Assembly: GCA_001556995.1 (NCBI GenBank)
Contig: LSKF01000108.1
Coordinates: 1 to 26,773 of the forward strand
Direction of reading: 5' to 3'
Length of the DNA stretch: 26,773 bases
DNA from: Erythrobacteraceae bacterium CCH12-C2
GTDB taxonomy: Bacteria; Pseudomonadota; Alphaproteobacteria; Sphingomonadales; Sphingomonadaceae
Shown piece by piece: positions 4,253 through 24,673 of the stretch. Each line of letters begins with the position of its first letter. The stretch's first letter is position 1. The translations under genes were made by a program, and so were the position numbers. The notes beneath the pieces were generated by a model. The model did not search any database. It had not been told where the DNA came from and was given only the letters and a program-made list of their open reading frames with translations.

Positions 4253-5575
4253 TCAAAAATGCGTTAGAGTCTCTTCGACCAGCGCGCGAAATCCGCGCGC
4301 GGCATCGCCAAGAGCGGATGGGCTGATTGTGCGCATATCGTCGCTCGCGACGTGATGGAATCGATGTGCGCCGAACACACCGGCAACCGAGGTATAGCCG
4401 GCCGCAATGATCTCAGCCAATTCTCCGGCTGCGCCAGATTCGAGCGAATAGGGGACTTCAAGGCCAGGCTGCCCGGTGAATATCCGCCTTGCCGACTCGA
4501 TCACGTTGTCGGAAACCAGCAAGAAGCGTTGCGGATCGGCGCTTGGCAGAGGAAACAGGTCGCCGGGTACTTCGTGCCAGTCTCGCGTTGCTACATTGGC
4601 ACCCAGATGCAGCCAGAACGCGGTTTCGCTCGGTGATGGTGCATGATCTCCAAGCACATGGCTCGCGCCAAGGTTTTCGTATTCATGCCCACTGTTGCAC
4701 ACAAAAAACAGATTGTGCCGCGTGCAGGCGCGCGCAGCCCATTCAGCCAATGCCAGCCAAATCACGATCCCGGGTCCGCGCTCGCCAACGCAGGCTGTCC
4801 ATCCTGAGCGCGGGGTAGATACGGCCAGCCACGGGAGGCCTTCGGCGCGCTCAAGGCGCGCGATGATGTTGAACGCCGGTCGGCTGGCACGATGCGCATC
4901 AATCTGCAAACGCGCCGTTTCACCGCGTCTTGCGCCGTCGCGGACCGGATCGGCATTCTTTGGAGCCAGAATCGCAACCGGCCCCGCGAACATCGGGTCC
5001 CCGGCTGGAACATTAAGCGCGATCGCCTGTCCGGTTGGCCCGTTGGTGATAAGGATCGCTGCCGCACAGCCTTCGGAAAATGCCGCCCGCACTGGCTCGC
5101 GGATTGCGGGGATGTCAGCCTTGGACCAGCGCCGGTGAGGCAAATCAATTACGGCCAGCGCCCCTGGCCGTACGTCAGGCTCCCCGAGTTCCCGGAGTGG
5201 CCCCGCGATCCCCTCGCGCGGCGTAGTTAGTGAAAGCGCTAGAGGCAGAACCGGGATCTCTCGCGGGCCAATCTTGATTGCGCTGCGAGCGACCTCGAAA
5301 TGAGGCACACGGAACATCTGGCGTTCGACCGCGTAACCGCTCCGCATCACGCGCTCAGTGAGCCAGTCACCCACCAGCGAATCTCCCGACCCTCCGGCTC
5401 GCTTGTCGCCGGCTTCATGATAGGTAGCCATATCGGCCATGAGGTCTGCCTCGGCAGCTTTGATGCCCGATGCGGTCTGACGATTGCTGACTGCGGAGAC
5501 GGAGGCATTGGCAATCAAGGAGGCACCAAGCCCCACTCTCAGAATATTGCGGCGACTTGCCTTGACCATGGTCAT
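4253..5575 (-). CDS. Tat-exported M28-peptidase-like protein lacking part of the zinc site
   Basis: A 440-residue exported protein. Its N-terminus carries a twin-arginine motif, SRRNIL (residues 7-12), followed by a hydrophobic stretch. The middle part (~110-220) resembles a PA-like insert. The C-terminal half resembles M28 aminopeptidases: PAFNIIARLE, then LPWLAVSTPRSGW, GERGPGIVIWLALAEWAA, NLFFVCNSGHEYENLGASHVL, and near the end FHHVASDDMRTISPSAL. M28 enzymes normally have an HxD pair where STPRS stands and a D-N pair where GERGPG stands. Those zinc ligands are absent, although the HEYE segment and the late histidine/aspartates remain. It may be a divergent hydrolase or a binding protein. 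Its ATG overlaps the stop of the regulator gene (ATGA), so the two are cotranscribed. Confidence 0.72.
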   Translation of the reverse strand: MTMVKASRRNILRVGLGASLIANASVSAVSNRQTASGIKAAEADLMADMATYHEAGDKRAGGSGDSLVGDWLTERVMRSGYAVERQMFRVPHFEVARSAIKIGPREIPVLPLALSLTTPREGIAGPLRELGEPDVRPGALAVIDLPHRRWSKADIPAIREPVRAAFSEGCAAAILITNGPTGQAIALNVPAGDPMFAGPVAILAPKNADPVRDGARRGETARLQIDAHRASRPAFNIIARLERAEGLPWLAVSTPRSGWTACVGERGPGIVIWLALAEWAARACTRHNLFFVCNSGHEYENLGASHVLGDHAPSPSETAFWLHLGANVATRDWHEVPGDLFPLPSADPQRFLLVSDNVIESARRIFTGQPGLEVPYSLESGAAGELAEIIAAGYTSVAGVFGAHRFHHVASDDMRTISPSALGDAARGFRALVEETLTHF

Positions 5576-6312
5576 TTTCGCTTCTTGCGGTCGGTGTTGC
5601 GTTTGGTCTGGGCGTGGGTGCGGTGATATTCGTCCAGAGCTCCTGCAAACATGGTTTGCGATACCCCGATCAGGTCGCGCGCCGCCTGTTCAGCGGCATC
5701 GGCGTCCCGCTCGACCAACTTCAAGCACAGCTCTTCGAAGATGTCGGCTGATCGCAGGCCAGCCGCGTTGTCCTGCCGGTCGATATATTGGTGCGTGAAC
5801 ACATTGTGTTGCCAACGGGCAAGCAGCGCCAGCCGATCGATCAATTCTAGCGCGAGTTCTCCGCCGCACCTCTTGGCGATGTATCGGCCAATCCGGTTTG
5901 AAACCTTGAGGTGTTCGAAAGTGTCGTTGGTGTTCTCCACGACCGCGCGGTATTGCTTGATTCGGTGCAGCAATTCGCGACCGTCTGGTTCGCTCATTTC
6001 CATGCTCGCAAGCCGACAGACTACGCCGAACAGAGCTTTCCACAGTTCGTAGACCTCGTTCGCAGCGTGCTGATTGATCTCGATGACATGAGCGCCCCGC
6101 CAAGGGACAATCCGGATGAGGCCAATCCGCGCGACATGGCGAAATGCCTCGCGCACCGGTGCGTGCGAGACGTCGAACCGCAAGGCGATTTCGCGCTCCC
6201 GGATCCAGGTGCCGGGCGGTATCCGCCATGCCACGATGTCGTCGATCAACATTCTGGCGATGTTCATATCCTGCGTCGAGGTTTCGGCAGGTGCCGGCGG
6301 GGTAGGAGCCAT
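5572..6312 (-). CDS. GntR family transcriptional regulator (FCD-type)
   Basis: About 246 residues. The N-terminal winged helix (roughly residues 15-80) reads ARMLIDDIVAWRIPPGTWI, REREIALRFDVSHAPVREAFRHV and GLIRIVPWRGAHV, the standard GntR pattern with 'PVREA' in the recognition helix. The C-terminal half is all-helical, as in FCD effector-binding domains. ATG at 6312 is chosen because the frame upstream of it runs through the probable operator and promoter and is not GntR-like. An ATG a few codons later is also possible. The gene overlaps the M28-like gene by ATGA and diverges from the serine-hydrolase gene. The shared palindrome upstream of its own promoter and of the receptor suggests autoregulation and local control. 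The effector is unknown. Confidence 0.9.
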   Translation of the reverse strand: MAPTPPAPAETSTQDMNIARMLIDDIVAWRIPPGTWIREREIALRFDVSHAPVREAFRHVARIGLIRIVPWRGAHVIEINQHAANEVYELWKALFGVVCRLASMEMSEPDGRELLHRIKQYRAVVENTNDTFEHLKVSNRIGRYIAKRCGGELALELIDRLALLARWQHNVFTHQYIDRQDNAAGLRSADIFEELCLKLVERDADAAEQAARDLIGVSQTMFAGALDEYHRTHAQTKRNTDRKKRK

Positions 6313-6366
6313 GAAGTCGATTTTCCCGAATTCCAGAAAGCTCTGGCCTGAGCTCGCTCGTTGTGT

Positions 6367-6384
6367 ATTATTATCGATAATTCT
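6367..6384. promoter_or_regulatory. Palindromic operator-like site between regulator and hydrolase genes
   Basis: The perfect palindrome ATTATCGATAAT (6370-6381) lies in the 98-bp gap between two divergent genes. It is part of an 18-nt string identical to 4179-4196 upstream of the TonB receptor. It is placed to affect both promoters. It is probably bound by the adjacent GntR-type regulator, which is inference. Confidence 0.65.
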
Positions 6385-6410
6385 TGAGAAGGCAATTGGG
6401 GTCCAGGGAC

Positions 6411-7469
6411 ATGATCGCAGCGGCAAATCGGTTACTGGCAATGCGATGCGGCGCAGCAGGTGCCCTGACGCTCCTGATTGCACCAGTAGCCAAGTCTCTT
6501 GCCGCGGACGCTGATGCTGCCGACGATTGTGCCGAGGCAGTAGCCTATTCGGACGAACATCGCGGCTTGTCGGTCCTTGTCCTTAAAGATGGCGAAATTG
6601 TGTGCCAGTCCGGCGGCGATACAATTGAGCGGCCCCATGAATTGTGGTCCGGCACCAAGAGTTTCGTGGGTGTGATGTTTGCTGCAGCGGTGCAAGAGGG
6701 GCTGCTCGCGCTTGACGAGAATGTTTCGGATACGATCGTCGAATGGCGCAATGATGAGAAGAAACGAGGCATCACAATTCGTCACCTTCTCTCGATGACC
6801 AGTGGTCATGAGAGCCGGATTGGCCGACCTCAAGGCTATCGCGCATCGCTTGGCGAGCCAGTGATCACCGCACCTGGTGCAAGTTTCCAATACAGCCCGA
6901 CCCCGATGCAGATCGCAGGTGAGTTGCTGAGCCGCAAGCTGGAGGCGGCAGGCGAACCGTCGAACCCTATTGTTTATCTTAGGGACCGCATCCTCGGTCC
7001 GCTTGACATCAAAGTAGCTCAATGGCGTAGCGGCCCTGATGGTAATCCATTGATGCCGCAAGGCGCGGTGCTCTCGGCGCGGGATTGGGCCAAATTTGGA
7101 GAATTCATTCGCAGAGAAGGGAAAATTGCAGGTCGCCGTGTAGTCGATCCAGAAGCCTTCGCAGCCCTATTTCGCGGCAGTGACGCCAATCCTGCCTACG
7201 GACTTACATGGTGGCTGCCGCGAACGCCGCTGAGCCCTGATCGCATTACAGAGACCATCGATCTCACCCTACATACCGGATCAGTCCCAGCGGACGCCGT
7301 CATTGCAGCAGGTTTTGATGGTCAGAGGCTCTACGTGATCCCCTCCAAGGGACTGACGATCGTGCGTCAGGCAAGCATCGATCCTGCAGCGCTACGTCGC
7401 AGGAACAACGATAGCGAGGACAATGGTTGGTCTGACACAAAGTTTCTCAGCTTTTTCGTTGAGCCCTAG
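6411..7469 (+). CDS. Exported serine hydrolase, beta-lactamase/class C-like
   Basis: About 352 residues from ATG 6411, which has AGGG just upstream; an in-frame TTG at 6384 lies within the operator. The signal peptide has a hydrophobic core, GALTLLIAPVA, and a likely cleavage after SLA. The fold is that of class C beta-lactamase-like hydrolases and esterases. The nucleophile motif is SGTK (Ser80, Lys83), followed by the typical GVMFAAAVQEGLLALDENVSDTI and IRHLLSMTSGHES. The second motif is YSP (Tyr161) in place of YSN. Such proteins act in the periplasm on esters, amides or D-amino-acid peptides; the substrate here is unknown. It diverges from the regulator and shares an operator-like site with the receptor, so it probably acts on the same imported compound. 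Confidence 0.88.
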   Translation: MIAAANRLLAMRCGAAGALTLLIAPVAKSLAADADAADDCAEAVAYSDEHRGLSVLVLKDGEIVCQSGGDTIERPHELWSGTKSFVGVMFAAAVQEGLLALDENVSDTIVEWRNDEKKRGITIRHLLSMTSGHESRIGRPQGYRASLGEPVITAPGASFQYSPTPMQIAGELLSRKLEAAGEPSNPIVYLRDRILGPLDIKVAQWRSGPDGNPLMPQGAVLSARDWAKFGEFIRREGKIAGRRVVDPEAFAALFRGSDANPAYGLTWWLPRTPLSPDRITETIDLTLHTGSVPADAVIAAGFDGQRLYVIPSKGLTIVRQASIDPAALRRRNNDSEDNGWSDTKFLSFFVEP

Positions 7470-10291: not shown

Positions 10292-11046
10292 TGGCTTGCC
10301 AACCCCTACGCCGCAGGTACCGCGCGCCGCTCTGCTCGGCCGTACTGTTCGCTCTTGGCGCCACCGGCGCACAGGCAGCGGACCAGTTCCGGCAGGCCGC
10401 CGACGGCTCGAGCATCGAATGCGCGGTTTCGGCGCGCGAGCTCACCCGCTTTGCGCTGATCGACGACCAGTTCGCCAGCGTCTCGAAGATCTCGAGCGGA
10501 ACGCCTTACATTGATTTCGCGGTGACCAACGAGCCGCTGCGCGGCGACATCTACGTCTCGGTCCCGGAGACCTTTGCGGCGCGCGCGATCAGCTTCTTTG
10601 CCACCACCCGCAAGGGCTATGTCTACAAGCTTGCCTGCAAGATCGAGCCGATCCCGGCGGTACAGGTCTTCATCGCCAACCCGGCGATTGCGCAAGGCAA
10701 GGCGGCGGATTGGGAGCGCGAGACCCCGCTTTCAACCAGCGCAGTGCGCCTCATCCAGGCGATGGCCAATGACCGGACGGTTGAGGGCTTCGAGGTGCGC
10801 CAGTCCGCCAATCCGCCGGCACGCGTGGGCGATCTCGAGGTCCAGCTGATCGCCGATTACCGCGGAGTGAGCCTTGCTGGAAAGGTCATCCGCATTGCCA
10901 ATCGCGGCGCTGCGCAGGTGACCCTGGCCGAGCGCGACATTGCCCCTGCCGACACGCTGGCAGTGACGATCGTCAATCCTGTTCTGGGTCCAGGCAGCAG
11001 CACGATCGCCTTCATCGTCGGCACGAACGGAGGGTCCGAACAATGA
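10288..11046 (+). CDS. traK: Conjugal transfer protein TraK (secretin-like)
   Basis: A 252-residue periplasmic/outer-membrane core protein (F TraK is 242). The signal peptide, with core LCSAVLFALGATGA, ends AQAAD. The mature part has alternating beta-strand patterns and ends in an IVGTNGGSEQ tail. In F-type systems TraK forms the outer-membrane core complex with TraV and TraB. Its start overlaps the traE stop, and its stop overlaps the traB start (11043-11046, ATGA), showing tight coupling. No defect is visible. Confidence 0.85.
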   Translation: MMACQPLRRRYRAPLCSAVLFALGATGAQAADQFRQAADGSSIECAVSARELTRFALIDDQFASVSKISSGTPYIDFAVTNEPLRGDIYVSVPETFAARAISFFATTRKGYVYKLACKIEPIPAVQVFIANPAIAQGKAADWERETPLSTSAVRLIQAMANDRTVEGFEVRQSANPPARVGDLEVQLIADYRGVSLAGKVIRIANRGAAQVTLAERDIAPADTLAVTIVNPVLGPGSSTIAFIVGTNGGSEQ

Positions 11047-12380
11047 GCGATACGGCACCCGCACCTGCCTCGCATCCGGAACAAGCGGAACACCCCGCGC
11101 CTTCGCCGGTCGCCGAGCTCAACGCCCGCACAGCGCGCCGCCAGAAGCTGCTTATGGGCGCAATCGGTGCTCTCGTTCTCGTGGGCGGCAGCTGGTTCAT
11201 TCTTGGCGGCGACGACAAACCCGCCGGCAGTGATCCTGACGCTGCACAGACCATCGATACGGCCGGCGTCGTCAACCGCGACCTCGCCAACCGCGAGTTC
11301 GTTGCGACCTACAGCAACCGGATCGATGCAGTGACCCGCGAGCAGAAGGCGCTGCGCGATGCGAGCGTACCGCGCAGCGAGATCGAAGAGCAGCTGGCGG
11401 CGCTCAAGGCCGAGAACCAGGCGATGCGTACCGACGGTCAGGCGGCGATCGATGCAATCTCGGCCGAGAATGCCGAGCTCAGAACCCGGCTTGCCAGTCA
11501 GCCGCCTGCCCCGCTCCCTGCTGCTCCGCCGCCGGCCTATGGCCCGCAGGCGGGTGGCTACGACGCCCGCGGCACCGGGGTCGCGACCACCCGGTCGGCC
11601 AGTGCAACGAGCGAGAACGCGGTTCCCGCCTTCGCGCCAGGCGAGGTCAAACTGATGAGCTTTGCTTCCGAGAAGACAGGCACTGCAGGACCGCGCACGG
11701 CGAGGCCTGAAAAGCCTCCCGTCGTGGTCGAGGACTCCCCCGATTATCTGCCGCCCAATTCCTACGCGCCGGCGCGTGTGATCGTGGGTGTCGATGCCTC
11801 GGCGGGGGTGTCGAGCCAGACCGATCCGCTTCCCGTCGTGCTACGGATCACGGGCCCCGCGCGCTCGGTGATGCAGAACGGCAAGGTCCTGACGACGCGG
11901 ATCGAAGGCTGCATCGTCAATGGAGCCGCGCGCGGCGATCTCTCTTCAGAGAAGGTCTATGTGAAGCTTGCCCGCATGACCTGCGACCAGCCCGGTGGCC
12001 GGGTCGCCGTGAGCGAGGTCAAAGGCTTCATCAGCTTTGCCGGCAAGTCCGGGGTGCGTGGGCGCGTGGTCAGCCGCGAAGGCAATCTTGTGAGCCAGGC
12101 GCTGCTGGCCGGGATCGTCGGCGGGTTCGGACGCGGGCTCTCGGCCAACGCCAATGGCATCTTCGCCGGCCAGCTCGGTGCAGGCCAGCAGCGCGAGCAG
12201 CTCTCTGCCACCGACATTCTGGCAGGCGGCCTCGGCCAGGGCGCGGGCGAAGCGGCCGATACGGTCAGCCGCTACCTCATCGAGCGCGCAGAACAATACC
12301 AACCTGTCGTCGAGATGCCGACCGGCATCGCGGTCGAGATCGTGTTTCTCGACGGCGTCTTCGTGAGGAATTCCCAATGA
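11043..12380 (+). CDS. traB: Conjugal transfer protein TraB (VirB10-like)
   Basis: A 445-residue protein (F TraB is 475) that bridges inner and outer membranes in the core complex. A membrane helix lies at residues ~36-55 (LLMGAIGALVLVGGSWFILG). It is followed by a likely coiled coil (~100-155, EQLAALKAENQAM), a proline-rich linker (PPAPLPAAPPPAYGP), and a VirB10-like beta domain with LRITGPARSVMQNGKVLTTRIEGC, KVYVKLARMTC and GFISFAGKSGVRGRVVSREG. It ends VEIVFLDGVFVRNSQ. ATGA overlaps join it to traK and to the next gene. It appears intact. Confidence 0.92.
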   Translation: MSDTAPAPASHPEQAEHPAPSPVAELNARTARRQKLLMGAIGALVLVGGSWFILGGDDKPAGSDPDAAQTIDTAGVVNRDLANREFVATYSNRIDAVTREQKALRDASVPRSEIEEQLAALKAENQAMRTDGQAAIDAISAENAELRTRLASQPPAPLPAAPPPAYGPQAGGYDARGTGVATTRSASATSENAVPAFAPGEVKLMSFASEKTGTAGPRTARPEKPPVVVEDSPDYLPPNSYAPARVIVGVDASAGVSSQTDPLPVVLRITGPARSVMQNGKVLTTRIEGCIVNGAARGDLSSEKVYVKLARMTCDQPGGRVAVSEVKGFISFAGKSGVRGRVVSREGNLVSQALLAGIVGGFGRGLSANANGIFAGQLGAGQQREQLSATDILAGGLGQGAGEAADTVSRYLIERAEQYQPVVEMPTGIAVEIVFLDGVFVRNSQ

Positions 12381-13264
12381 CCAGCGAAACGAACCCATCC
12401 CCCCACAAGCGGCGCATGCGCTGGATCAAGCCAGCAGCCGGGATCGCCGGGATGATCGCCCTTTCGGCCGCAACAGGCTGGGCCGTCGCCAGCCTCGCCT
12501 CGCCCATGAAAGCGCCAGATACAGACACCGTGCGGGCCGCCCTCAAGCTGCGCCTGCCCAAGACCCCGATCGACAGGATCGCTTGCGAGGGTCTTGGCAG
12601 CCTGTGCGAAGTCGCCTCCAAGTCGACGCTGTTCTACGTCGATCGGGCGGCGCGCTATCTCGTGATCGGGCGGGTCTATGACATGGAAGCGCGTCAGGAT
12701 CTGACGGCGGCCCGGCTGCTTGAACTGAACCCAGATCTTCTGACGGCAGGCGCGCCCCGCGCTGCGGCAGCCGAGAAAGCCCCTCAGGCCGCGGCGCGCA
12801 CGGCACCCAAGAAAGTATCGCTCGCGGGTCTTCCGGCCAATGGCGCAATCACCTGGGGCCCTGTGAACGGGCCGAAGGTCGTGGTCTTTTCCGATTTCCA
12901 GTGCGGCTACTGCAAGAAGCTCGAAGAGGAGCTGAAAGCGATCGGTGCGCGGGTCGAGGAGCGACCGATCTCGATCTTCGGGGCCGAGAGCCGCCGCGAC
13001 GCCGAGCGGGTGCTGTGCGCCCCGCGCCCCGAACTCTCGCTCCGGCTCGCCTATTCGGGCGGCGCGCTCGTCAATCCCAAGCCCTGCGACACCAGCGGTC
13101 TCGATGCCAACGAGGCCTTCGCCAAGGCCAATGGCTTTACCGGCACGCCCGTTCTCGTGCGCCCTTCCGATGGCGCAGTGCTCGAGGGCTACCGCCCGGC
13201 GGCCGTGCTCCGCGAATTCCTGCGCCCCTCTGCACCGGCGCTGACCTCCAATACAAAAGGATAG
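12377..13264 (+). CDS. DsbC-like thiol-disulfide protein of the transfer operon
   Basis: A 295-residue periplasmic thioredoxin-fold protein anchored by an N-terminal membrane segment (~residues 18-38). The redox site is CGYC (Cys176, Cys179) in VVVFSDFQCGYCKKLEEEL, and the cis-proline loop is TGTPVLV. DsbC/TrbB-like isomerases are regular members of F-type transfer operons, where they help fold cysteine-rich Tra proteins. Its start overlaps the traB stop by ATGA, and traV follows 4 bases later. It looks complete. Substrates would include TraV and missing proteins such as TraN, TraU and TraH, which is inference. Confidence 0.85.
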   Translation: MTSETNPSPHKRRMRWIKPAAGIAGMIALSAATGWAVASLASPMKAPDTDTVRAALKLRLPKTPIDRIACEGLGSLCEVASKSTLFYVDRAARYLVIGRVYDMEARQDLTAARLLELNPDLLTAGAPRAAAAEKAPQAAARTAPKKVSLAGLPANGAITWGPVNGPKVVVFSDFQCGYCKKLEEELKAIGARVEERPISIFGAESRRDAERVLCAPRPELSLRLAYSGGALVNPKPCDTSGLDANEAFAKANGFTGTPVLVRPSDGAVLEGYRPAAVLREFLRPSAPALTSNTKG

Positions 13265-13268
13265 ATCC

Positions 13269-14051
13269 ATGCGGCTCCCCTTCCGTTTCCTCGCCTGCGC
13301 CGGTCTTGCCCTGACGGCGAGCGCCTGCGCGACGTTTGGCACCAATGTCGAAGGCTCGTTCCAGTGCCGCGCGCCCAAGGGCGACTGTGCACCCTCGCAT
13401 GTCCTCGATGCCCGCGCGACGAGCGACATGACGGCCGAGAAGAACCCGCAGCACGCGATGCGTCCAGCCATTGCTGTCGCGGCGGGCGATCAGGCGCGCA
13501 CATCCGAGCGCACGCTGAAGATCGTGTTCCCGGCGCGGGTCGATGAGGCAGGAACGCTGCACGACGAGGCTGTCGCCTGGGCCGTGATCGAGAACCCGCG
13601 CTGGGCGGCCGAACTGCGCCGCAAGCCTGGCCAAGAGTCCGCACCGCCGCTGATGCGGCAGCTGAAACGGCAGCTGAAGGCGGTGCAGGCCACCGCGCAA
13701 TCCGGTGCGCTGACAGACAACATGCTCGCGGCTGACAGCATGGACGAAGCCAGCACCGCCCAAGCAGACCAGAGCACCCCTGACGCCGGATTCCTCATCC
13801 AGCCCGACAACCACTCCGACCTTTTCCCGTTGGTCTCGCCGCCGGTATCCCCCTCCCCGGAGGACGAGACTGCGACCGGTGCTGATGCACCGGTGGCCGG
13901 GGGGCTCCATGCGACCGCGTCCCCGCATGACCCAGCCCCCCGGCTTTCCAACACCCGCGCGCCGCTCACCTTCCCGAGCATCGAAGCGATCGAGGCGGCC
14001 AAGCGCGATGCAGCCGCCAGCAAGGCTCAGCCCGAAAAGGAGCAAAATTGA
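13269..14051 (+). CDS. traV: Conjugal transfer lipoprotein TraV
   Basis: A 260-residue protein with a lipoprotein signal, MRLPFRFLACAGLALTASAC, in which Cys20 is the likely lipidated residue. It continues ATFGTNVEGSFQCRAPKGDC, giving the cysteine pair expected near the TraV N-terminus. TraV anchors the TraK/TraB core in the outer membrane. The C-terminal ~100 residues are low-complexity and rich in proline, serine and aspartate, making it longer than F TraV (171). Its TGA overlaps the traC ATG (TGATG, 14049-14053). Confidence 0.85.
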   Translation: MRLPFRFLACAGLALTASACATFGTNVEGSFQCRAPKGDCAPSHVLDARATSDMTAEKNPQHAMRPAIAVAAGDQARTSERTLKIVFPARVDEAGTLHDEAVAWAVIENPRWAAELRRKPGQESAPPLMRQLKRQLKAVQATAQSGALTDNMLAADSMDEASTAQADQSTPDAGFLIQPDNHSDLFPLVSPPVSPSPEDETATGADAPVAGGLHATASPHDPAPRLSNTRAPLTFPSIEAIEAAKRDAAASKAQPEKEQN

Positions 14052-16075
14052 TGGTCCAGCGCCTCAACATGATCGTGGACCGGGTCCTTGCTGGGCTGTT
14101 GGGCGATGCCGAGCATTCCGAACCAGCGCGCCCGGCCCTGATGATCGATCAGCTCTCGGACTGGCTGCCCTACCGGGTCTATGATCCGTCAAACCGGCTC
14201 TACCTCAATGCGCGCTCCAAGGGCTTCGTCTTGTCGGTCACACCACTCATTGGGGCCGACGAGCGCACGGGCGAGATCCTAGGGCAGTTCTTCTCCGAAG
14301 GTTTGCCACCCGGCTCATGCCTGCAGGTGCTGCACCTTGCTTCCCCGCGCATCAGCCGGATCATCGCGCCGTGGTTTGCGCCGCGCTATCTTCAGGGCGG
14401 GGTCTATGAGGCGATTGCGCGCCACCGCGCCAAGCGCCTCTATGGCCTGGTGTGGAAATCAGGCTCTGCCGATGCGCCCTTCCATGCCCGCCACCATCAG
14501 GTGATTGTCTCTGTTGGCGTTCCGGCTGCGAAAGCGGTCAGCAATGAGGAACTGCGGCAAACCCGCGACGGCCTCATGGCCATGCTCAAGTCGCTGAACC
14601 TTGGCGTCGTCGAAGTGGGGCCGGAGGATCTCATCGCCATTATCGATGACCTCACGTCCCCCACGACCGCGCAGCAGGAAGATGCCCTTGCCTATAATCC
14701 GCACGATGCGATCGCGGCCCAAGCGATCCGGCATGATATCGAGCTGATCGTGCAGGAAGACCGGATGCGGCTTGCCACCGAGCGCTTCCGGCCGACTGGC
14801 AAGCTCCACGACGGCGTACCGGAGATCGGCACGATCTACCCTGACGCCTTCGATGTGCGCCACTTTTCGGTCCGCAACACGCCGGCGCGCTGGGCACCCT
14901 GGGAATGCGCGCGTTTGATCGGCGATCTCTTCACCGACAAGCTGCGCTTTCCGTGTCCTGCGGCAACGATGCTGTGCCTCGTCTATCCCGATCAAGAGGC
15001 GGCGGCCGCCAAGGCCGGGTTCAAGTTCATGCGCACCACGAGCCTTTCCGAAACGCGCAGCGCGCGCTTCCTGCCACGGATCGGCGAACAGGCCGCAGAA
15101 TGGCAGCATGTCCAGGCCGAACTGCAGGAAGGCCGCCGGCTCGTGCGGGTGTTCTATGGCCTCACGACCTTCTCGCCGCTGGGGCGCGGCGACAGCGACG
15201 AGCGCGCGATCAAGTCGATCTACAAAGCGGCGGGCTGGGACCTTGCCGACGAGCGCTTCCTGCAGATCCAGGGCTTGCTGGCTGCCATGCCGATGACGCT
15301 CGCCGACGGCCTGGGTGCCGACATGGAGCGTCTGAAGCGCTTCAAGACGGTCCTGTCGACCACCGCCGCCAACATGGCACCGATGCAGGGCGAATACACG
15401 GCGAGCGAGGAGACGCGCAGCTGTGCGATCCCGCTCAACGTCGCGGTCGAGACACAGACCCGCTACATCTATTGGTGCAGCGAATTCGGTTCGGGCTTTG
15501 AAGAAGATTGCACACGGTTCCATGCGGCGAGCTGCGAGCGCACGGGATTTATCGAAGGCCCTTGCCTGCAATGGGGCGACTTCGGCGGACCGCGCTTTTG
15601 TGCCGAGCCCGGGAAGACCAAAGCTCTTGCGGCACTGCTCGCCGTCACCCCAATCACCGAGGCACAGAAGGAACTGCTCCAGGTCGCCTCGATCCCGCTC
15701 TACAAAATCCTGACCGTTCAGGCGGCCTACGGGCGCGGCATGCCGACCGATGACCGCGAGACCCTCGCCGAGATCGCTAGTGTCGATCTGTTGTTCGCGG
15801 TGCTCGACCGGATCGTCAGCGAATCCGGCCGCTCGATGTCGAGCTTCATCGGCGCCGACGAAGCCAAGATCGCGATGTGGCAAGGCCAGGTCAATGTCGT
15901 ACGGCAGGCGCTCGCAGACCGGCAGGCCAACACGCATCTGAAGGTCGGCGCGATCATGCAGATCATCGAGAAGACGGCCTTCATCGAGAATGTGCTCGCC
16001 GCCTCGATGTCGCCCGGCATGTCGGCCTCGCTCGACTGGTCGCGCGGTGTGCAGTCGCGCGCGCTCTCCCAGTAA
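14051..16075 (+). pseudogene. Chimeric frame: N-terminal TraC joined to C-terminal TraH
   Basis: An uninterrupted 674-codon frame starts at ATG 14051 with AGGAG ~8 bases upstream. Residues 1-449 match the N-terminal half of the transfer ATPase TraC/VirB4, up to FKTVLSTTAANMAPMQGEY. In TraC a GRRGQ segment and a Walker A motif should follow; here neither occurs. From about residue 520 the sequence fits the TraH C-terminus: KALAALLAVTPITEAQKELLQVASIPLYKILTV, then a helical tail ending at 674. Residues ~450-519 are cysteine-rich and I cannot assign them. Genes normally between traC and traH in F-type operons (traW, traU, trbC, traN, traF) are absent, so an in-frame deletion most likely fused the two. 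The product cannot be a working ATPase. Confidence 0.78.
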
Positions 16076-16120
16076 TCCCCACACCCAGCCGCAAGGCCGC
16101 CTCGCGAGGAACGCAGCACC

Positions 16121-16156
16121 ATGGTCGAGATTTTCACGGTTGGCGGCGGCGATTAA
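16121..16156 (+). pseudogene. traG 5' remnant (11 codons)
   Basis: The frame MVEIFTVGGGD followed by TAA resembles the start of F-type TraG (F TraG begins MNEVYVIAGGEW) and sits where traG belongs, just after traH. The resemblance stops at about 16153, where recombinase-strand sequence begins. The rest of traG, over 900 residues in F, is missing. Confidence 0.5.
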
Positions 16157-16189
16157 ACGCCGCGACAAGAGATGCGAAAGGGGCAAGTG

Positions 16190-17371
16190 CAAAGGCAGCG
16201 GATGATGTGAAGGATTCCCGCGATGGGCCAACTGGTCGAGGTCATCTCCGAAAATGCCGAGACCCTTGAATGCTGCCCTGAGCTTGGCCCTGTCACTGAG
16301 GAAATCGCCAACCGCAGCCAGAACAGTCCGGTCAAGATTATCCGCATTGCAACGATACGCACGGCGGAACTCGACCTGCGACCAGGCCGCATTGCTCGAC
16401 ACATAGGCACAATAGGTCCGGCCGCGCTGCCAGTTGAGATCGAGCAGCATGTGCCTGCCAAGATCATCCCACAGCAAGCCGGCAAGAAAGTGATGGGTCT
16501 CCTTGGCATGAGGCGAGCGCTTCTTGCGCTCCTCGCTCAATGCTTGGGCCGCCGCCCATGTTTCCTGGCTTATCAGCGGATCATGGACGCCCTGGTAGGT
16601 TGTGCTGTGGCCGCGGATCTGGCCGACATAAATCGGATTGCGAAGGATGCCGTATACGGTTACGGGCGACATCGGGGTGCCGCCGCGCGCGAGACCCCCA
16701 CGCGACAGCTTGACCGAGCTGCAATAGCCTGCCTCGCGCACGGCCGTCATCACCGAAGTGTATCGCCGGGTCCTCAGGAACTCGGCGAAGATGAAGCGCA
16801 CGATCCTGGCCTCAGCTTCATCCACACGAAGGCCGTCCTTGCCAGCGACATAGCCAAATGGCGGCAGGCCGCCGTGGATGCGTCCATGACGTTTTCGGGT
16901 ACGGATGCTGTCGCGGACCCGCTCGGCAATCAGTTCGCGCTCGAACTGCGAAAAGGTGAGCAACACGTTGAGAATCATCCGGCCCATGCTGTCGGAGGTG
17001 TCAAAAGCTTGGGAGATTGACACGAGCGTGATCGATTGCCGGTCGAACAATTCGACCAGACGGACGAAATCGAGCAGACTACGGGTAAGTCGGTCTATCT
17101 TGTAGACGACCACCGCGTCGACTTCCCCCGCCTCGACGTCCTGCATCAGACGGGATAGCGCCGGGCGCTCAAGTCCGCTACCGGAGTGTCCGCCATCGTC
17201 ATAGTGCTGTGGCAGTTCAACCCAGCCTTTGTATTGCTGGCTCTTGATGTAGGCGCTGCAGATCTCTCGCTGGGTGACCAGCGAATTGACATCGTGCGCG
17301 AGACGTTGCGTTGTGCTCTTGCGGGTGTAGATCGCGCAGCGCTTGATCGGCAGGCTTTGCTCGGTGAGCAT
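16190..17371 (-). CDS. Large serine recombinase, C-terminally truncated
   Basis: The ATG at 17371 has AGGAG 8 bases upstream. The catalytic domain begins CAIYTRKST with the nucleophile serine in RKST, then NSLVTQREICSAYI, YDDGGHSGSGLERPALSRLM, DAVVVYKIDRLTRSL and FERELIAERVRDSI. These are the conserved resolvase-domain blocks. A 'recombinase' domain (ILRNPIYVGQIRG) and a region around HFLAGLLWDDLGR and CAYVSS follow. Recognisable homology ends near GIFGDDLDQLAHRG at about 16205. Beyond that the frame stays open only because it runs antisense to traH/traC down to 14459. Relatives usually extend well past 450 residues, so the DNA-binding C-terminus is lost and activity is doubtful. Such enzymes integrate or excise mobile elements. 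Confidence 0.8.
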
Positions 17372-17519: not shown

Positions 17520-18824
17520 ATGAACGCTCCTTTCGATGCCACAGCGGCGCTCGGGCGCAAGGCCCTCGCGCATCCCGCGCCCGATCATCAGGTCGCGGTG
17601 ATTGGCCTCGGCTATATCGGCCTGCCCACCGCCGCGTTGCTCGCTTCCTACGGGTGGAGCGTGTGCGGGGTCGACGTGTCGCAGCGCGTGGTCGACACGG
17701 TCAACGCGGGCGGCGTCCATATCGAGGAGCGCGATCTCGACAAGCTGGTGCACGATGCGATCACCGCGCGGACGCTGGTCGCATCGACCGAGGTGCCGAC
17801 CGCGAGCTTCTACATGATCGCCGTGCCCACCCCGCTGGGCGAAAACAACGCCCCCGACATCACCTATGTCGAGGCCGCCGCGCGCGCGATCGCGCCCAGG
17901 ATCCTGCCCGGCGCCTGCGTGATCGTCGAGAGCACCTCGCCGGTCGGCACCACCGAGAGGGTGGCGCAGATCATCAGCGAAATGCGTCCCGATCTGGTCG
18001 TGCCCCAAGACGGCGGCGACGATGAGGCGGACATCGCGCTCGCCTATTGCCCCGAACGCGTGTTGCCCGGGCGGATCGTCAACGAACTCGTCCACAACGA
18101 CCGCGTGATCGGCGGCGTCACCCCGGCCTGCGCCGAGCGCGCGGCGGTGCTCTATACCAGCTTCGTCAAGGGCGACTGCCTCTACACCACCGCCCGCGTC
18201 GCCGAGACGGTGAAGCTGGTCGAGAACTCGTTCCGCGACGTGAACATTGCGTTCGCGAACGAGCTTTCGATGATCGCCGACGTGATCGGGGTCGACGTGT
18301 GGGAGGTGATCCGCCTCGCCAACCGCCACCCGCGCGTCAACATCCTCCAGCCCGGCCCCGGCGTGGGCGGGCATTGCATCGCGGTCGACCCGTGGTTCCT
18401 CGTGGCGGGCGCGCCCTCGGCCGCGCGGCTGGTGCGCACCGCGCGCGAGGTCAATGACCACAAGGCGGTCCACACCGAAGGCAAGATCCGCGCATTGCTC
18501 GATGCGGTGCCAGGAGGCACGGTCGCGCTGCTCGGACTGGCGTTCAAGCCCGACATCGACGATTTCCGCGAAAGCCCCGCGCTGGAGATCGCCGAAGCGC
18601 TTTCCCATACCCACGGGGAGCGCATCCTGGTGGTCGAGCCCTTCACCGAAGAACTGCCCAAGGCGCTCGAAGGCACGGGAGCGCGGCTGGTCACCCTTGA
18701 CGCAGGCCTGAGGCAGGCCGAGATTGTGGTGGTGCTGGTCGATCACACCGCCTTCAAGCATCTCGGCCACGAAGACCTGGTCGGCAAGCTCGTGTTCGAC
18801 ACGCGAGGCATGCTGCGGTTGTGA
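17520..18824 (+). CDS. wecC: UDP-N-acetyl-D-mannosamine dehydrogenase
   Basis: A 434-residue cytosolic enzyme that oxidises UDP-ManNAc to UDP-ManNAcA with two NAD+, supplying a sugar for envelope polysaccharide. The N-terminal Rossmann motif is VAVIGLGYIGLPTAALLASYG. STSPVGTTERV and the YCPERVLPG segment are typical of the UDP-glucose/ManNAc dehydrogenase family. The catalytic cysteine is in GPGVGGHCIAVDPWFL (about Cys286), and the C-terminal domain has LLGLAFKPDIDDFRESPA. PERVLPG and HCIAVDPWF favour WecC over UDP-glucose dehydrogenase. Length agrees with E. coli WecC (420). Its stop overlaps the GTG start of wecB (GTGA, 18821-18824), so the pair is coupled. It appears intact. Confidence 0.93.
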   Translation: MNAPFDATAALGRKALAHPAPDHQVAVIGLGYIGLPTAALLASYGWSVCGVDVSQRVVDTVNAGGVHIEERDLDKLVHDAITARTLVASTEVPTASFYMIAVPTPLGENNAPDITYVEAAARAIAPRILPGACVIVESTSPVGTTERVAQIISEMRPDLVVPQDGGDDEADIALAYCPERVLPGRIVNELVHNDRVIGGVTPACAERAAVLYTSFVKGDCLYTTARVAETVKLVENSFRDVNIAFANELSMIADVIGVDVWEVIRLANRHPRVNILQPGPGVGGHCIAVDPWFLVAGAPSAARLVRTAREVNDHKAVHTEGKIRALLDAVPGGTVALLGLAFKPDIDDFRESPALEIAEALSHTHGERILVVEPFTEELPKALEGTGARLVTLDAGLRQAEIVVVLVDHTAFKHLGHEDLVGKLVFDTRGMLRL

Positions 18825-20083: not shown

Positions 20084-21013
20084 TCAATTGTCCTCCATAG
20101 GGGACCAATCAAAACGCGATTCGAGAACGCGATTCTCTTCTGAGTCATAATACGGGAAATTCGATATAAGCTCTTCGAATATGGCCTCTTTTTCTTGACG
20201 CCGATTATACTTAAATTCGATTTCTGCAAGAAAACTCCACATATGTATTCGCGAAACTTGCCTTGCTGAACGGAGCATACGGCGGACTGTCGACCAGTAG
20301 GCCTCGATATGGTTGGTGGAGTGGCCCCTAAAGTCATGAAAGGCGACGGAATGGTTGACTTGGACGTGATCAAAACCATGCTGGCCCAGCGTCCGGTAGC
20401 CTGGCAGCATGTCGGTCACGACCTTTGAACCGGGCATGACACGGGCGACAATGTTCGGAATGAGGGTTCCTGACGTTCGGTCTGGCACTATTGCCGACAA
20501 AACCTTACCCTCGCATGCCAATCCAAAAACGATAACGGCATCGTTCGGCTTCCCTGCAGTACTAGCAATGTAGCGGAGATGCACCTCATCAATATGGACG
20601 GTCTTGCCCTCGCCCCCAAGCTTATCTGGTCGCGCCATAGCTGCCATGTGCACCCTGATCATCCTGCAGAGCCGATGCGAGCTGTTGTGACCGATCCCAA
20701 GTTGCCTTCGGATAAATCCTGCGCGCATTCCGGTCGACGTGTTGGAGAACAGAAAAAAGGCATAAAACCATGCCATAAGCGATAGGTTGGACCGATACAT
20801 AACGGTGCCCTTGAGCGGCGAAACGTGTTTTCCGCAGGCATGCCGCCATTTCTTGGTACCCTTGATCCGCGACCAGTGACCATGCTTTCCGCAGCCCGGG
20901 CAAGGCGAATGGGTCCCAAATCTAGCGTCGAAAATGTGCTGCAGACACGATTCTTCGTTCGGAAACCGCTCGAAGAACTGCGCAATTCCGAGGGGCTTTG
21001 ACTTCCCTGCCAT
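20084..21013 (-). CDS. IS1595-family transposase, catalytic triad present
   Basis: 309 residues from ATG 21013. A zinc-ribbon-like N-terminus (CPGCGKHGHW, then HACGKHVSPLKGTVMYRS) is followed by the IS1595 DDE domain. The first Asp is in HIDEVH (Asp142), the second in VVTDMLPGYRTL (Asp201), and the Glu in STNHIEAYWSTVRRMLR (Glu237). A C-terminal helix, EIEFKYNRRQ, follows. One expected zinc-ribbon cysteine is replaced (RHACG instead of CxxCG). The longer in-frame start at 21055 would overlap the upstream gene. Its ATG begins 1 nt after that gene's TGA (TGAAATG), indicating translational coupling. Enzymatic competence is plausible from the triad, not proven. Confidence 0.88.
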   Translation of the reverse strand: MAGKSKPLGIAQFFERFPNEESCLQHIFDARFGTHSPCPGCGKHGHWSRIKGTKKWRHACGKHVSPLKGTVMYRSNLSLMAWFYAFFLFSNTSTGMRAGFIRRQLGIGHNSSHRLCRMIRVHMAAMARPDKLGGEGKTVHIDEVHLRYIASTAGKPNDAVIVFGLACEGKVLSAIVPDRTSGTLIPNIVARVMPGSKVVTDMLPGYRTLGQHGFDHVQVNHSVAFHDFRGHSTNHIEAYWSTVRRMLRSARQVSRIHMWSFLAEIEFKYNRRQEKEAIFEELISNFPYYDSEENRVLESRFDWSPMEDN

Positions 21014-21014
21014 T

Positions 21015-21974
21015 TCAGTTCTCCCGGGTTGCTTGGGTGCCAAGCGGCAGGCCATACCCTATGGTCAAATCAGGGAAGGCGCTAATCATGTCCCAATAGG
21101 TCTGCGCCGACCGATTTCGACGATTGTAGCGGAACAGAAATTCACCGAGGTAGAGCCATAGATGCGTACGCGATGCATACTTGTGGTGCGTCTGGAAGGG
21201 CCAGAGGAAATAGGATAGGAAGCCCTTGATCGCATCTGACTCTTGAGGATGGTCCGTGAAGTAGCACGGGAGCATGGTTGCTCGCGGTGGCCGGGAACCA
21301 TAATCGGAAAACAGCCGGTGCGTGCGGTAGCAGGTCGTGCGCAAATCGCCGTGACCAGGCACCATTTTCGCAACAGCCTGGAGCGCAAATCTCTGACGGG
21401 AAGAACCGATTACCTGACAATCGACCTTGCCGTCCCGTGCGGCGAACAGGATATTGGCACGATTTTGGCCGGAGGTGCCTGAGCGTACACGGCGCAGGTT
21501 CTCCACCCTCACTTCGATATCCTGTCCTGGCGAAGCAATTGGTGTCATGCGTCCCAACTCGGACATATGCCATCGGATCTTATGAGCCATGAGGAAGGCC
21601 GCGCGATAGCTAATCCCGAGATGGCGCTCGAGAAAACCTGCATTCACACCCTCGTGCGAATTGGCAAAGTGCAGCATCGCATAGAACCAGAGCCGAAGGG
21701 GCAGCCTGGTGCGATGAAAAACAGTGCCTGCAAGCGGCGAAACAAGTGCACCGCAGCAATCCAGTACATATTGCTTGCTCTTTCGGCGGTGCCAGCTCCT
21801 GACGCCGCCACACTTGTGACAAGGGAGGCCCTGGCCGAACCGTGTGTGCATCACATGTTCAAGACAAGCATCTTCTGAGCCGAAACGCAGTGCAACCTCC
21901 TGAAGACTGGTGCCATCGTAGCCTGGGCGTGAAAGGCGCGATCGAACCGGCGCGTATCCTAGATCAAATGGCAT
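21015..21974 (-). CDS. IS1595-type transposase paralogue lacking DDE residues
   Basis: 319 residues from ATG 21974 with GGAGG 7-11 bases upstream. It shares the IS1595 layout: a zinc-ribbon-like region (CHKCGGVRSW, then DCCGALVSPLAGTVFHRT) and a helical stretch, SHEGVNAGFLERHLGISYRAAFLMAHKIRWHM. The C-terminus is HKYASRTHLWLYLGEFLFRYNRRN, the usual IS1595 end. Aligned with the downstream transposase, the three catalytic positions are changed. The first Asp becomes Arg156 (EVRVEN), the second becomes Thr (LRTTCYRT, ~213-214), and the Glu becomes Lys250 (DAIKGF). It should be unable to cut DNA, yet the frame is complete. It could be an accessory DNA-binding subunit or a decaying copy. Confidence 0.82.
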   Translation of the reverse strand: MPFDLGYAPVRSRLSRPGYDGTSLQEVALRFGSEDACLEHVMHTRFGQGLPCHKCGGVRSWHRRKSKQYVLDCCGALVSPLAGTVFHRTRLPLRLWFYAMLHFANSHEGVNAGFLERHLGISYRAAFLMAHKIRWHMSELGRMTPIASPGQDIEVRVENLRRVRSGTSGQNRANILFAARDGKVDCQVIGSSRQRFALQAVAKMVPGHGDLRTTCYRTHRLFSDYGSRPPRATMLPCYFTDHPQESDAIKGFLSYFLWPFQTHHKYASRTHLWLYLGEFLFRYNRRNRSAQTYWDMISAFPDLTIGYGLPLGTQATREN

Positions 21975-22460
21975 TGAGGGGATCCTCCACTGACTTTTCG
22001 ATGGGCTCGCGCACCTGCTGCACCGGCCCGCTTCAAGAACCCGCGCGTACGCATCGCCTGAATCTGCTATGAGCCTTTTCTGCCATCTTTACATAGTCGT
22101 TAGGTGCCGTTCGTTCATTCATTAAGCCGCTTCATCAAGGGTGTAGGCGGTGCTGCACCTCCCGGGATTCGCCGCGCCCACAAGATCGCTCGCACGGCAT
22201 CGATGCTGGTCACGCGCCTGCCCGGTCCAACTGCACCACCTTTGTACCGAGTGTCGGCGCTTTCACGCCAAACGCATCGCCGGTGCTCCTCGTGGGTGCA
22301 CGCACTTTAGGGCCTCAAACAGGCTTCCGCGACGAACCCGCCCAGGCACTTCCCGCGCGAACAGCCTCAAGTGCTGTTCCAAGCCGACGAGAAGCCTCAC
22401 CATCGGCAGACAAAGGCAAAATTGCTTGCCGCACGGACAGTAGGCTATAGCTGAAAGCCG
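21975..22460. other. Non-coding or decayed stretch between transposase pair and cysD relic
   Basis: This stretch of nearly 490 bases has short open frames on both strands but none with a family motif, a good ribosome site or sensible composition. It should contain the promoter of the transposase pair near 21990-22100 and whatever drives the cys genes. It may include debris from the event that deleted most of cysD. I recognise no repeat or RNA in it. Confidence 0.5.
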
Positions 22461-22760
22461 ATGCGCAGTCTGATAGAGATCGAACGGCTTTACGCCGATA
22501 GGTTACACTTTTCGCCCAAGGCCGAAGCCGAGGCGAAGAGTCCGTTGATGCTCGATTCGGTAAGCAAGAACTCATCGATGATGCAGTGTTCGGCCCGCAA
22601 AGGGCGCCACGCAGCGCAGCAGCCTTTTGCGATGCTGCACTTTAAAGACAGCCGGGATTTGACCGACCTGCTCGCCACCGGATCCGAACGTCAGGGCCGC
22701 GCGATCGACAAGGGGCAGTGGGCGAGCATGGAAGACAAGAAGCAGGAAGGTTACTTCTGA
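22461..22760 (+). pseudogene. cysD: Internally deleted cysD (sulfate adenylyltransferase subunit 2)
   Basis: A 99-codon frame (intact CysD has about 300). Residues ~1-67 follow the CysD N-terminus: LIEIERL, then SPLMLDSVSKNSSMMQCSARK, where CysD has '[21 protein letters not shown]', and [14 protein letters not shown], where CysD has 'PPFPLLHVDTTWKF'. It then jumps straight to the CysD C-terminus, [25 protein letters not shown]. About 200 central residues are missing without loss of frame. The PP-loop signature SxGKDSS has become SVSKNSS, so the retained half has also drifted. CysD makes APS from ATP and sulfate together with CysN; this version cannot. Its TGA still overlaps the cysNC ATG (22758-22762). 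Confidence 0.82.
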
Positions 22761-24673
22761 TGAACACCCCCTCCAGCTTCCAGACCGACGCGCTGATCGC
22801 CGAGGACATCGACGCCTATCTCGACCAGCACCAGCACAAAAGTTTGCTGCGCTTCATCACTTGCGGCAGCGTGGATGATGGCAAATCGACGCTGATCGGC
22901 CGGCTGCTCTATGATTCCAAGATGATCTTCGAGGACCAGCTTGCCGCGCTCGAAAGCGACAGCAAGCGGCACGGCACCCAGGGCGAGGAAATCGATTTCG
23001 CGCTGCTGGTCGACGGCCTCGCCGCCGAACGCGAGCAGGGCATCACCATCGATGTCGCCTATCGCTTCTTCACGACGGAAAAGCGCAAGTTCATCGTCGC
23101 CGACACGCCCGGGCACGAACAATACACCCGCAACATGGTGACCGGCGCCTCGACCGCCGACCTCGCGGTGATCCTGATCGATGCGAGGAAGGGCGTGCTG
23201 CAGCAGACGCGGCGGCATTCCTACCTCGTCCACCTGCTCGGCATCCGCCATGTGGTGCTGGCGGTGAACAAGATGGACCTGGTGGACTACGACCAGTCCA
23301 CCTTCGAACACATCGTCGCCGACTATCGCAGCTTCGCCAAGAGCATCGGGATCGCCGATTTCACCGCGATCCCGATCTCGGGCTTCAAGGGCGACAACAT
23401 CACCACCGCGCCCTCGGCCAACACGCCGTGGTATGACGGACCGGCGCTGATCGAGCATCTCGAGACCGTCGAGGTCGATGCGGCAGCCGCGCAAGCCCAG
23501 CCGTTCCGCATGCCGGTGCAGTGGGTCAACCGCCCCAATCTCGACTTCCGCGGGTTCGCCGGGCAGATCGCCAGCGGCACGATCCGTCCGGGCGACGCGG
23601 TGCGGATCGTGCCTTCGGGCAAGACCAGCACGGTCGCGCGGATCGTGACCTTCGACGGCGATCTCGACGAGGCGGTGGCGGGCCAGTCAGTCACGCTGAC
23701 GCTCGCCGACGAGGTCGATTGCAGCCGCGGCGACCTGATCGCGGCCGCGGGCGATCCGCCGCAGGCCTCCGACCAGTTCTGCGCGACCTTCGTGTGGATG
23801 GACGAGGAGGCGCTGAAGCCGGGCCGCGGCTACTGGCTGAAGCTCGGCACGCAGACGGTTACGGCCACGGTCCAGCCGCCCAAATACGAGATCGACGTCA
23901 ACAGCCTCGAGCACCTGGCGGCCAAGACGCTGGGCCTCAACGCCATCGGGGTGGCCGAGTTCGCCACCGACCGGCCGATCGCCTTCGAATCTTACACCGC
24001 CAACCGGCAGCTCGGCGGGTTCATCCTGATCGACAAGTTCACCAACGCGACGGTCGCCGCCGGGATGATCGAGTTCAACCTGCGCCGCGCGGACAATGTT
24101 CACTGGCAGCCGGTCGCGATCACCCGCGAGGATCACGCGGGCATGAAGAACCAGACCCCGCGGGTGCTGTGGTTCACCGGGCTTTCGGGCAGCGGCAAGT
24201 CGACCATCGCCAACGAGGTCGAAAAGCAGCTGTTCCTTATGAACCGCCACACCTTCCTGCTCGATGGCGACAATGTCCGCCACGGGCTCAACCGCGACCT
24301 CGGCTTCACCGAGGCCGACCGGATCGAGAACATCCGCCGCGTGGGCGAGGTGGCGAAGCTGATGACCGATGCCGGTCTGATCGTGCTGACCGCCTTCATC
24401 AGCCCCTTCCGCGCCGAACGCGAGATGGTGCGCGCGATGCTTCCGCAAGGCGAGTTCATCGAGATCTTCGTCGACACCCCGCTGGAGGTTGCCGAGGCGC
24501 GCGACGTCAAGGGCCTCTATAAGAAAGCGCGTTCGGGCCAGCTCAAGAACTTCACCGGGATCGACAGTCCTTACGAAGCGCCGGAGAACCCGGAGATCAG
24601 GGTCAACACCGTCGACATGGCGCCAGAAGAGGCGGCGCAATTCATCATCCGGCAGATCCTGCCGTTGAAGTAG
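22760..24673 (+). CDS. cysN: Bifunctional sulfate adenylyltransferase subunit 1 / APS kinase
   Basis: A 637-residue CysN-CysC fusion (NodQ/CysNC type). The N-terminal part is the regulatory GTPase of ATP sulfurylase: P-loop GSVDDGKST (residues ~36-44), [27 protein letters not shown] and NKMDLVDY. Beta-barrel domains follow ([20 protein letters not shown]). The C-terminal ~170 residues are APS kinase: [18 protein letters not shown] (~471-488), [25 protein letters not shown], and [23 protein letters not shown]. Together the parts make PAPS from APS. The start is ATG 22760, overlapping the cysD stop; an in-frame upstream ATG at 22718 lies inside cysD. The GTPase partner CysD is broken here, so a second cysD elsewhere would be needed. 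Confidence 0.94.

Follow-up and report, generated by a model that had tools for sequence, protein, structure and literature searches.

The dead-plus-active pair of IS1595-like genes found on contig LSKF01000108.1 of Erythrobacteraceae bacterium CCH12-C2 (assembly GCA_001556995.1; the window, i.e., the whole stretch of DNA analysed, spans 26,773 nucleotides) belongs, as judged from sequence comparisons, to a two-protein system that is conserved among Erythrobacter-like bacteria. The upstream protein lacks the catalytic triad (hereafter UP), the downstream one bears it (DN), and the pair of the window is designated W. UP and DN are probably subunits of one putative heteromeric IS1595-type transposase or recombinase encoded by two translationally coupled genes, a reading to which a probability of about 0.6 was given. 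An earlier note on this DNA had proposed that the first protein serves as an inactive partner or that the two proteins form a domesticated system, and this class of explanation was the best supported, through the conserved pairing, the selection and the co-divergence described below.

Gene pair and catalytic residues

Both genes were located on the minus strand (unstated in the earlier note) and both reading frames were open, as previously claimed: UP, a 319-amino-acid (aa) IS1595-like protein, at 21974-21015, and DN, a 309-aa IS1595-family transposase, at 21013-20084, with its ATG at 21013. An alternative ATG at 21055 would extend DN to a 323-aa open reading frame (ORF) overlapping UP. The stop codon of UP and the start codon of DN were joined as TGA-A-ATG with a gap of 1 nt (21011..21017, minus strand), as read before. 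DN carried the triad D142/D201/E237. Alignment of UP to DN placed R156 (codon 21507..21509), T214 (21333..21335) and K250 (21225..21227, all on the minus strand) where the first catalytic Asp, the second catalytic Asp and the catalytic Glu belong, respectively, and the residues initially assigned to both proteins were thereby recovered.

The zinc ribbons spanned residues 52-74 in UP (21753..21821, minus strand) and residues 38-60 in DN (20834..20902, minus strand), with C52, C55, C73 and C74 in the former and C38, C41, H58 and C60 in the latter. The former description of one differing cysteine in each protein was loosely right for these residues; the family-wide cysteines numbered three and were present in both proteins (C52/C55/C74 in UP, invariant in the family alignment, and C38/C41/C60 in DN).

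DN scored above the curated cut-offs of PF12762 (63.6 bits, cut-off 27), PF12760 (28.1, cut-off 25.4) and NF033547 (108.5, cut-off 75), while UP stayed below all three (16.8, 17.5 and 48.1 bits, respectively). The AlphaFold2 single-chain models were confident (predicted local distance difference test, pLDDT, of 87.8 for UP and 90.7 for DN). The predicted fold of UP was similar to that of DN, the model retaining the whole RNase H-like domain together with N-terminal helices. The nearest PDB folds of UP were the ISCth4 transposase and retroviral integrases, the matches being of weak significance (lowest E 1.2e-3, TM about 0.3), and PADLOC returned no match for UP or DN. The pair thus resembled the IS1595 family (NF033547; PF12760, PF12762, ISXO2-like) through the profile matches of DN, the weak matches of UP and their similar predicted folds, and differed from it by a triad-less first protein, two coupled genes, a single copy, and the failure to find terminal inverted repeats (TIRs) or a target duplication. 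For comparison, an 8-bp target-site duplication is stated for the IS1016 group in PMC10045372; around the pair, no ends were delimited at which such a duplication could be read.

Relatives and distribution

Loss of the triad was common to all close UP relatives in which the three positions could be read. The UP search matched 328 proteins, and residues at the triad positions were counted in the best 107 of them (P0001-P0107, 35-100% identity). A complete triad was present in none of the 105 relatives having all three positions filled (0/105), contrary to the possibility, raised in the earlier note, that relatives would have full DDE residues in the first gene. The position of the first Asp was occupied by Arg (97/107) or Lys (7/107); since these two residues accounted for 104 of the 107 proteins, the replacement was common to the family and constrained. 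Thr (57) and Asp (38) prevailed at the second Asp position, and mainly Lys, His, Thr, Ser and Gln at the Glu position. The next matches (P0108-P0120), outside these counts, comprised eight proteins with DDE, the triad-less P0109 (RDL) and P0112 (NQA), and the fragments P0110, P0113 and P0114. DDE or DDD was encoded in 87 of 90 DN relatives, counted among the proteins new to the DN search.

In a quick tree of 111 rows, UP (SH-aLRT support 99), DN (100) and most single IS1595 transposases (100) formed separate clades. The exceptions were L082 and L083, stand-alone DDE proteins grouping with neither UP nor DN, and the long-branched DN of locus L017; the support of the UP clade fell to 90 when the triad-less L017 protein was included. 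Among viral contigs, 52 pattern matches were obtained, none of them a relative. Matches were also found in 160 plasmid records, the best among the listed ones reaching 31% identity and being annotated as an IS1595 family transposase.

The adjacency first noticed in the window recurred in 20 other genomes, UP and DN being adjacent in each. A contig scan returned 56 loci, 13 of them with a UP relative (L001-L011, L016 and L022), plus L017. DN stood directly behind UP in 12 of the 13, and the thirteenth (L003) ended at the sequence edge. Eight of these loci belonged to Erythrobacteraceae genera or bins, the remainder to Sphingomonadales or Alphaproteobacteria bins. Genome counts are lower bounds, at most 19 candidates per genome having been scored in a genus of 114 genomes and 5 in a set of 397 genomes of the family. 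At least 14 genomes of the genus had a UP match (E 1e-60 or better), each with an adjacent DN, and at least nine of the 397 genomes had a UP match; among these nine, G373 was cut by a contig end, and G009, G391 and G175 had a broken or truncated UP. Another set of ten genomes gave a pair in each (10/10). One pair per genome was found and never more, in the ten genomes as in the 14 pair-bearing ones of the genus.

All analysed loci with an open UP (18/18) combined a triad-less UP with a DDE- or DDD-bearing DN; this set contained two near-copies (L006 and L120) and the remote Novosphingobium pair of L017, and left out the four loci with a broken or truncated UP. A 4-nt NTGA stop/start overlap joined the genes in 8 of 20 loci, and the others with a named start lay within 18 nt (L119, L121 and L132 had no named start, and the codon named in L118 is a non-standard start).

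The L017 locus of Novosphingobium marinum (5132-6879) displayed a remote pair of an NQA and a DDD protein, with genes likewise overlapping by 4 nt, close to a TadE-like gene. This pair perhaps stems from a second, or an older, branch of the system.

Selection and co-divergence

UP is under purifying selection, as indicated by comparisons of its coding sequences. The ratio of nonsynonymous to synonymous substitutions (dN/dS, NG86 method) was 0.09-0.18 for UP in 7 of 10 comparisons, the synonymous distance (dS) being saturated in the other three, and 0.07-0.13 for DN in six comparisons, all ratios being rough because many dS values exceeded 1. Neutral evolution of the first gene, set out in the earlier note as the contrary outcome, was therefore not observed where the ratio could be estimated. 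The four loci with a broken or truncated UP were left out of the dN/dS and distance comparisons, and the UP sequences of L121, L131 and L135, whose starts were unclear, were begun at a conserved motif.

The distance matrices of UP and DN were correlated (Mantel r 0.886 over 16 pairs, L017 and L006 being left out; 0/5000 permutations as high). Over 15 pairs, the correlation was 0.86, and 0.815 as a partial correlation given gyrB, while UP and DN correlated with gyrB at 0.50 and 0.49, respectively (15 pairs; 1/5000 permutations as high for each).

At synonymous sites, UP and DN were both more diverged than gyrB in 7/7 comparisons (proportion of synonymous differences, pS, between G007 and G429: gyrB 0.26, UP 0.76, DN 0.73), than wecC in 6/6 and than cysNC in 3/3; the comparison with wecB was mixed (W/L128: wecB 0.51, DN 0.52, UP 0.66). 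These values suggest that the pair passed horizontally from one genome to another as a single unit, with vertical descent over some stretches. Part of the contrast could be due to codon bias, gyrB being a highly expressed gene. The overall picture of inheritance is one of a patchy pair, diverged beyond gyrB, for which the same wecB or cysNC neighbourhood yet recurs in a related group. Given the apparent exchange between genomes, and a UP that is broken or truncated beside an open DN in four loci, domestication in the strict sense is only a possibility.

Proposed two-subunit enzyme

In the favoured explanation, DN would be the putative cutting subunit, and UP a partner without catalytic activity, DNA-binding or architectural, that would position or restrain DN, by analogy with the PgmL proteins that accompany PiggyMac. 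In Paramecium, the active domesticated transposase PiggyMac works with PgmL proteins devoid of a conserved catalytic site, for which an architectural role is suggested in the part of PMC6143343 concerned. This is the closest precedent for a possible UP/DN heteromer, both cases placing a homologue without catalytic site beside an active partner, with purifying selection indicated for UP. The ciliate system differs by being eukaryotic, of the piggyBac family, with five partner groups and genome-wide DNA elimination, and interaction was shown there (same source), while the UP/DN association is proposed from sequence. In Oxytricha, proteins with a DDE_Tnp_IS1595 domain and without TIRs were inferred by the authors to be domesticated (PMC3558436); they share with the pair the IS1595 domain and the lack of TIRs, and differ in being ciliate proteins, with no dead/active bacterial operon in the section available. 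A bacterial pairing of a dead with an active IS1595 protein was not reported in any of the titles and abstract openings listed by searches of an open-access library. If the proposal is true, prokaryotes too have recruited non-catalytic relatives of transposases as partner subunits, as is known for ciliates, and the pair would provide a small, genetically tractable system for testing the role of the dead subunit.

Several observations weigh against this two-subunit reading. The pair was patchy (14 of the 114 genomes of the genus) and therefore not essential. UP was broken or truncated in L126, L132, L133 and L016 with DN open in all four, which may mean that DN can dispense with UP or that these copies are on the way to being lost. 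UP distances exceeded DN distances in 118 of 120 comparisons, and the near-identical pairs L006 and L120 gave a dN/dS of 0.68 for DN and 0.09 for UP, from few changes. The wecB-cysNC gap of G464, which lacks an intact pair at that site, holds only 157 bp similar to DN (L142, 2674-2829; 74.5%), read from this similarity as a DN relic. No DNA substrate was found, and the repeats listed around the pair in the window were indistinguishable from background. Finally, the categories of surface genes used in the last section were set after viewing the pairs.

The UP breaks of L008 (= L132), L011 (= L133) and L085 (= L126) clustered at roughly UP residues 176-190. Programmed frameshifting was considered for them and rejected, no shared slippery sequence being found by eye. 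At L016 (5314-7472; apparently the same genome as L089), the truncated UP was continuous in frame with an integrase-like N-terminus (by eye), with an open DN behind.

Alternative explanations and element ends

The best surviving alternative, still unlikely, is that a larger mobile island (integrative and conjugative element, ICE, or large transposon) uses the pair as its transposition module, with a two-subunit DDE integrase, surface genes as cargo and distant ends. The divergence beyond gyrB in 7/7 comparisons, suggesting movement between genomes, and the single copy, as expected of an ICE, are consistent with it. Conjugation or island genes were found near 8 of 19 pairs: type IV secretion system (T4SS) genes near W, L124 and L128, a TrwC relaxase near L118, ArdC near L122, L127 and L134, and a serine recombinase in W and L129. 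The same marker queries matched none of 20 random windows, a biased control because they had been taken from the surroundings of the pairs themselves. DDE-transposase ICEs do exist: in TnGBS-type ICEs, as in other Mutator-like DDE elements, the transposase works for a large conjugative element and not for a small insertion sequence (IS), although it belongs to another family and TIRs are described (PMC3942029). The wecB neighbour of W, L118, L128 and L129 was itself common in the genus (98/114 genomes), which counts against this alternative.

The extent of DNA similarity between pairs also bears on the island module. A transposase gene usually lies close to one terminal repeat, yet similarity between pairs mostly stopped at the ORF ends on both sides, which weakens this alternative. 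Between pairs 64-79% identical in DNA, similarity started at the UP start codon, up to 28 bases earlier, or inside UP, and ended inside DN in all comparisons except W/L128 and L121/L122. Similarity ran on in W/L128 with a shared wecB downstream and, under other settings, stopped inside DN and 10 bp before UP; it ran on in L121/L122 with a shared wecB upstream and 43 bp matched past DN. L120 and L131 matched in short pieces only.

A two-ORF insertion sequence of the IS1595 family, with a regulatory first ORF and terminal repeats too degenerate to be seen, would agree with the ordinary IS1595-type profile of DN and with neighbourhoods differing between lineages. No convincing TIR was detected within 700 bp of any of 14 pairs (14/14; ungapped scan judged by eye, without shuffled control), in accordance with the earlier note, which had found no terminal repeats. 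Little or no flank was conserved between pairs of 64-79% identity and, where similarity continued, the shared gene was wecB. Never more than one pair was present per genome searched, whereas G484 additionally carried two equal-scoring single IS1595 matches. Taken with these results, the insertion sequence appears very improbable.

Element ends were not revealed by comparison of sites either. Comparing occupied with empty sites yielded only the decayed site of L142; for the pair of G429, matches of the flanks in 40 genomes of its genus ended near a contig edge or lay elsewhere, and no empty site was obtained. In the window, the spacer between UP and cysNC (21975..22717, plus strand) displayed no conserved element end. 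A perfect 16-nt inverted repeat was noticed between the UP gene (21666-21681) and this spacer towards cysNC (22628-22643), which may be due to chance or be a relic.

Even less plausible is a free-standing DNA-binding regulator, in which UP would repress DN or the adjacent surface genes without forming a complex with DN: the zinc-ribbon cysteines and N-terminal helices kept by UP, and its position beside surface genes, would suit such a role, but UP retains the whole RNase H-like domain, beyond the DNA-binding part, and is tightly coupled to and co-diverged with DN. The idea that UP is a decaying duplicate hitchhiking with DN is scarcely credible: its faster divergence and its four broken or truncated copies are as expected of decay, but dN/dS was low over large synonymous distances, UP was open in the 18 other loci analysed, the first catalytic position was itself conserved as Arg or Lys, and the UP clade is broad. 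With a triad loss that was family-wide among the best 107 of 328 relatives and a UP under purifying selection, the view of the earlier note that the pair does not result from random decay was upheld.

Surface-structure and island genes around the pair

The putative two-subunit enzyme may act on the DNA of the variable islands that house the pair (surface-polysaccharide, adhesin and pilus loci), a weaker proposal than the heteromer itself, and could do so by rearrangement or island movement rather than as a self-spreading insertion sequence. In its most specific form, the pair would be a putative bacterial two-subunit DDE recombinase, with a dead IS1595 paralogue as obligate structural partner, present in single copy at surface-structure loci and island borders and rearranging or exchanging surface-changing DNA, as a counterpart of PiggyMac/PgmL; this full version is possible, and is held only tentatively. 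Should surface-polysaccharide or adhesin loci be its target, Erythrobacteraceae and related bacteria would possess a source of surface variation that has gone unrecognised. In Eggerthella lenta, the authors of a preprint connect an IS1595-family transposase at an invertible capsule region with a 32-kb inversion (PMC13174815). An IS1595-type transposase is common to both cases; that transposase of Eggerthella lenta is single, has 39-bp inverted repeats and belongs to another phylum, and its role is likewise inferred in that text.

When the nearest predicted genes were considered, a surface-structure neighbour was scored for 14 of 19 pairs (W, L118, L119, L121, L122, L124, L126 and L128-L134), against 3 of 20 random windows (L169, L170 and L175; one-sided Fisher p = 0.0003, with the categories set afterwards as mentioned above). 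When contexts of shared ancestry were counted once (by eye), the proportion was 10/14 (p = 0.0013), and under a stricter count 8/14 against 2/20 (p = 0.005). The control consisted of 20 random 10-kb windows from six pair-bearing genomes. Pfam scans covered 30 flanking proteins of the pairs and 40 of the random windows, two for each, predicted with a home-made gene caller; outside the window, genes were called wecB from their BLAST cluster. The pairs without a scored surface neighbour were L120, L123, L125, L127 and L135, with Tad and usher genes slightly further off in L125 and L135.

In the window, where the earlier note had placed the pair within a surface-polysaccharide locus, the pair indeed adjoined a wecB-like UDP-N-acetylglucosamine 2-epimerase gene (PF02350; 18821..19972, plus strand), a convergent neighbour whose stop codon was about 112 bp from that of DN. 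The 3' end of a wecB-like gene bordered the pair in 7 of 19 loci (W, L118, L121, L122, L126, L128 and L129), at 10 to 123 bp; DN faced wecB in five of these seven, and wecB was upstream of UP in L121 and L122. Next to wecB in the window stood a sugar dehydrogenase-like gene (17520..18824, plus strand), which is presumably wecC and is kept beside wecB in relatives. On the other side of the pair, a cysN/C-like protein (elongation factor Tu-type GTPase plus adenosine 5'-phosphosulfate kinase; PF00009, PF01583) was encoded at 22718..24673 (plus strand), in the same order as in L128.

Conjugation genes of the window (11043-16075, plus strand) adjoined wecC. They comprised TrbI (11043-12380, plus strand) and an ORF in which a TraC domain precedes a TraH-like tail (14048-16075, plus strand). 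This fused ORF may have been left by a deletion within the conjugation genes, and L128 matched 142 aa of it at 99%. The serine recombinase, a 970-aa ORF on the minus strand (14459-17371) with Resolvase and Recombinase domains in its first 282 residues, overlapped the TraC ORF and had a relative near the pair of L129.

Other neighbours of the pairs included a glycosyltransferase with an O-antigen ligase, sugar-nucleotide genes, cadherin-like giant adhesins, a CS1-type usher and parts of type I secretion systems. In L130 and L131, the pairs adjoined giant cadherin/DUF4347 adhesin genes with a common short N-terminal motif.

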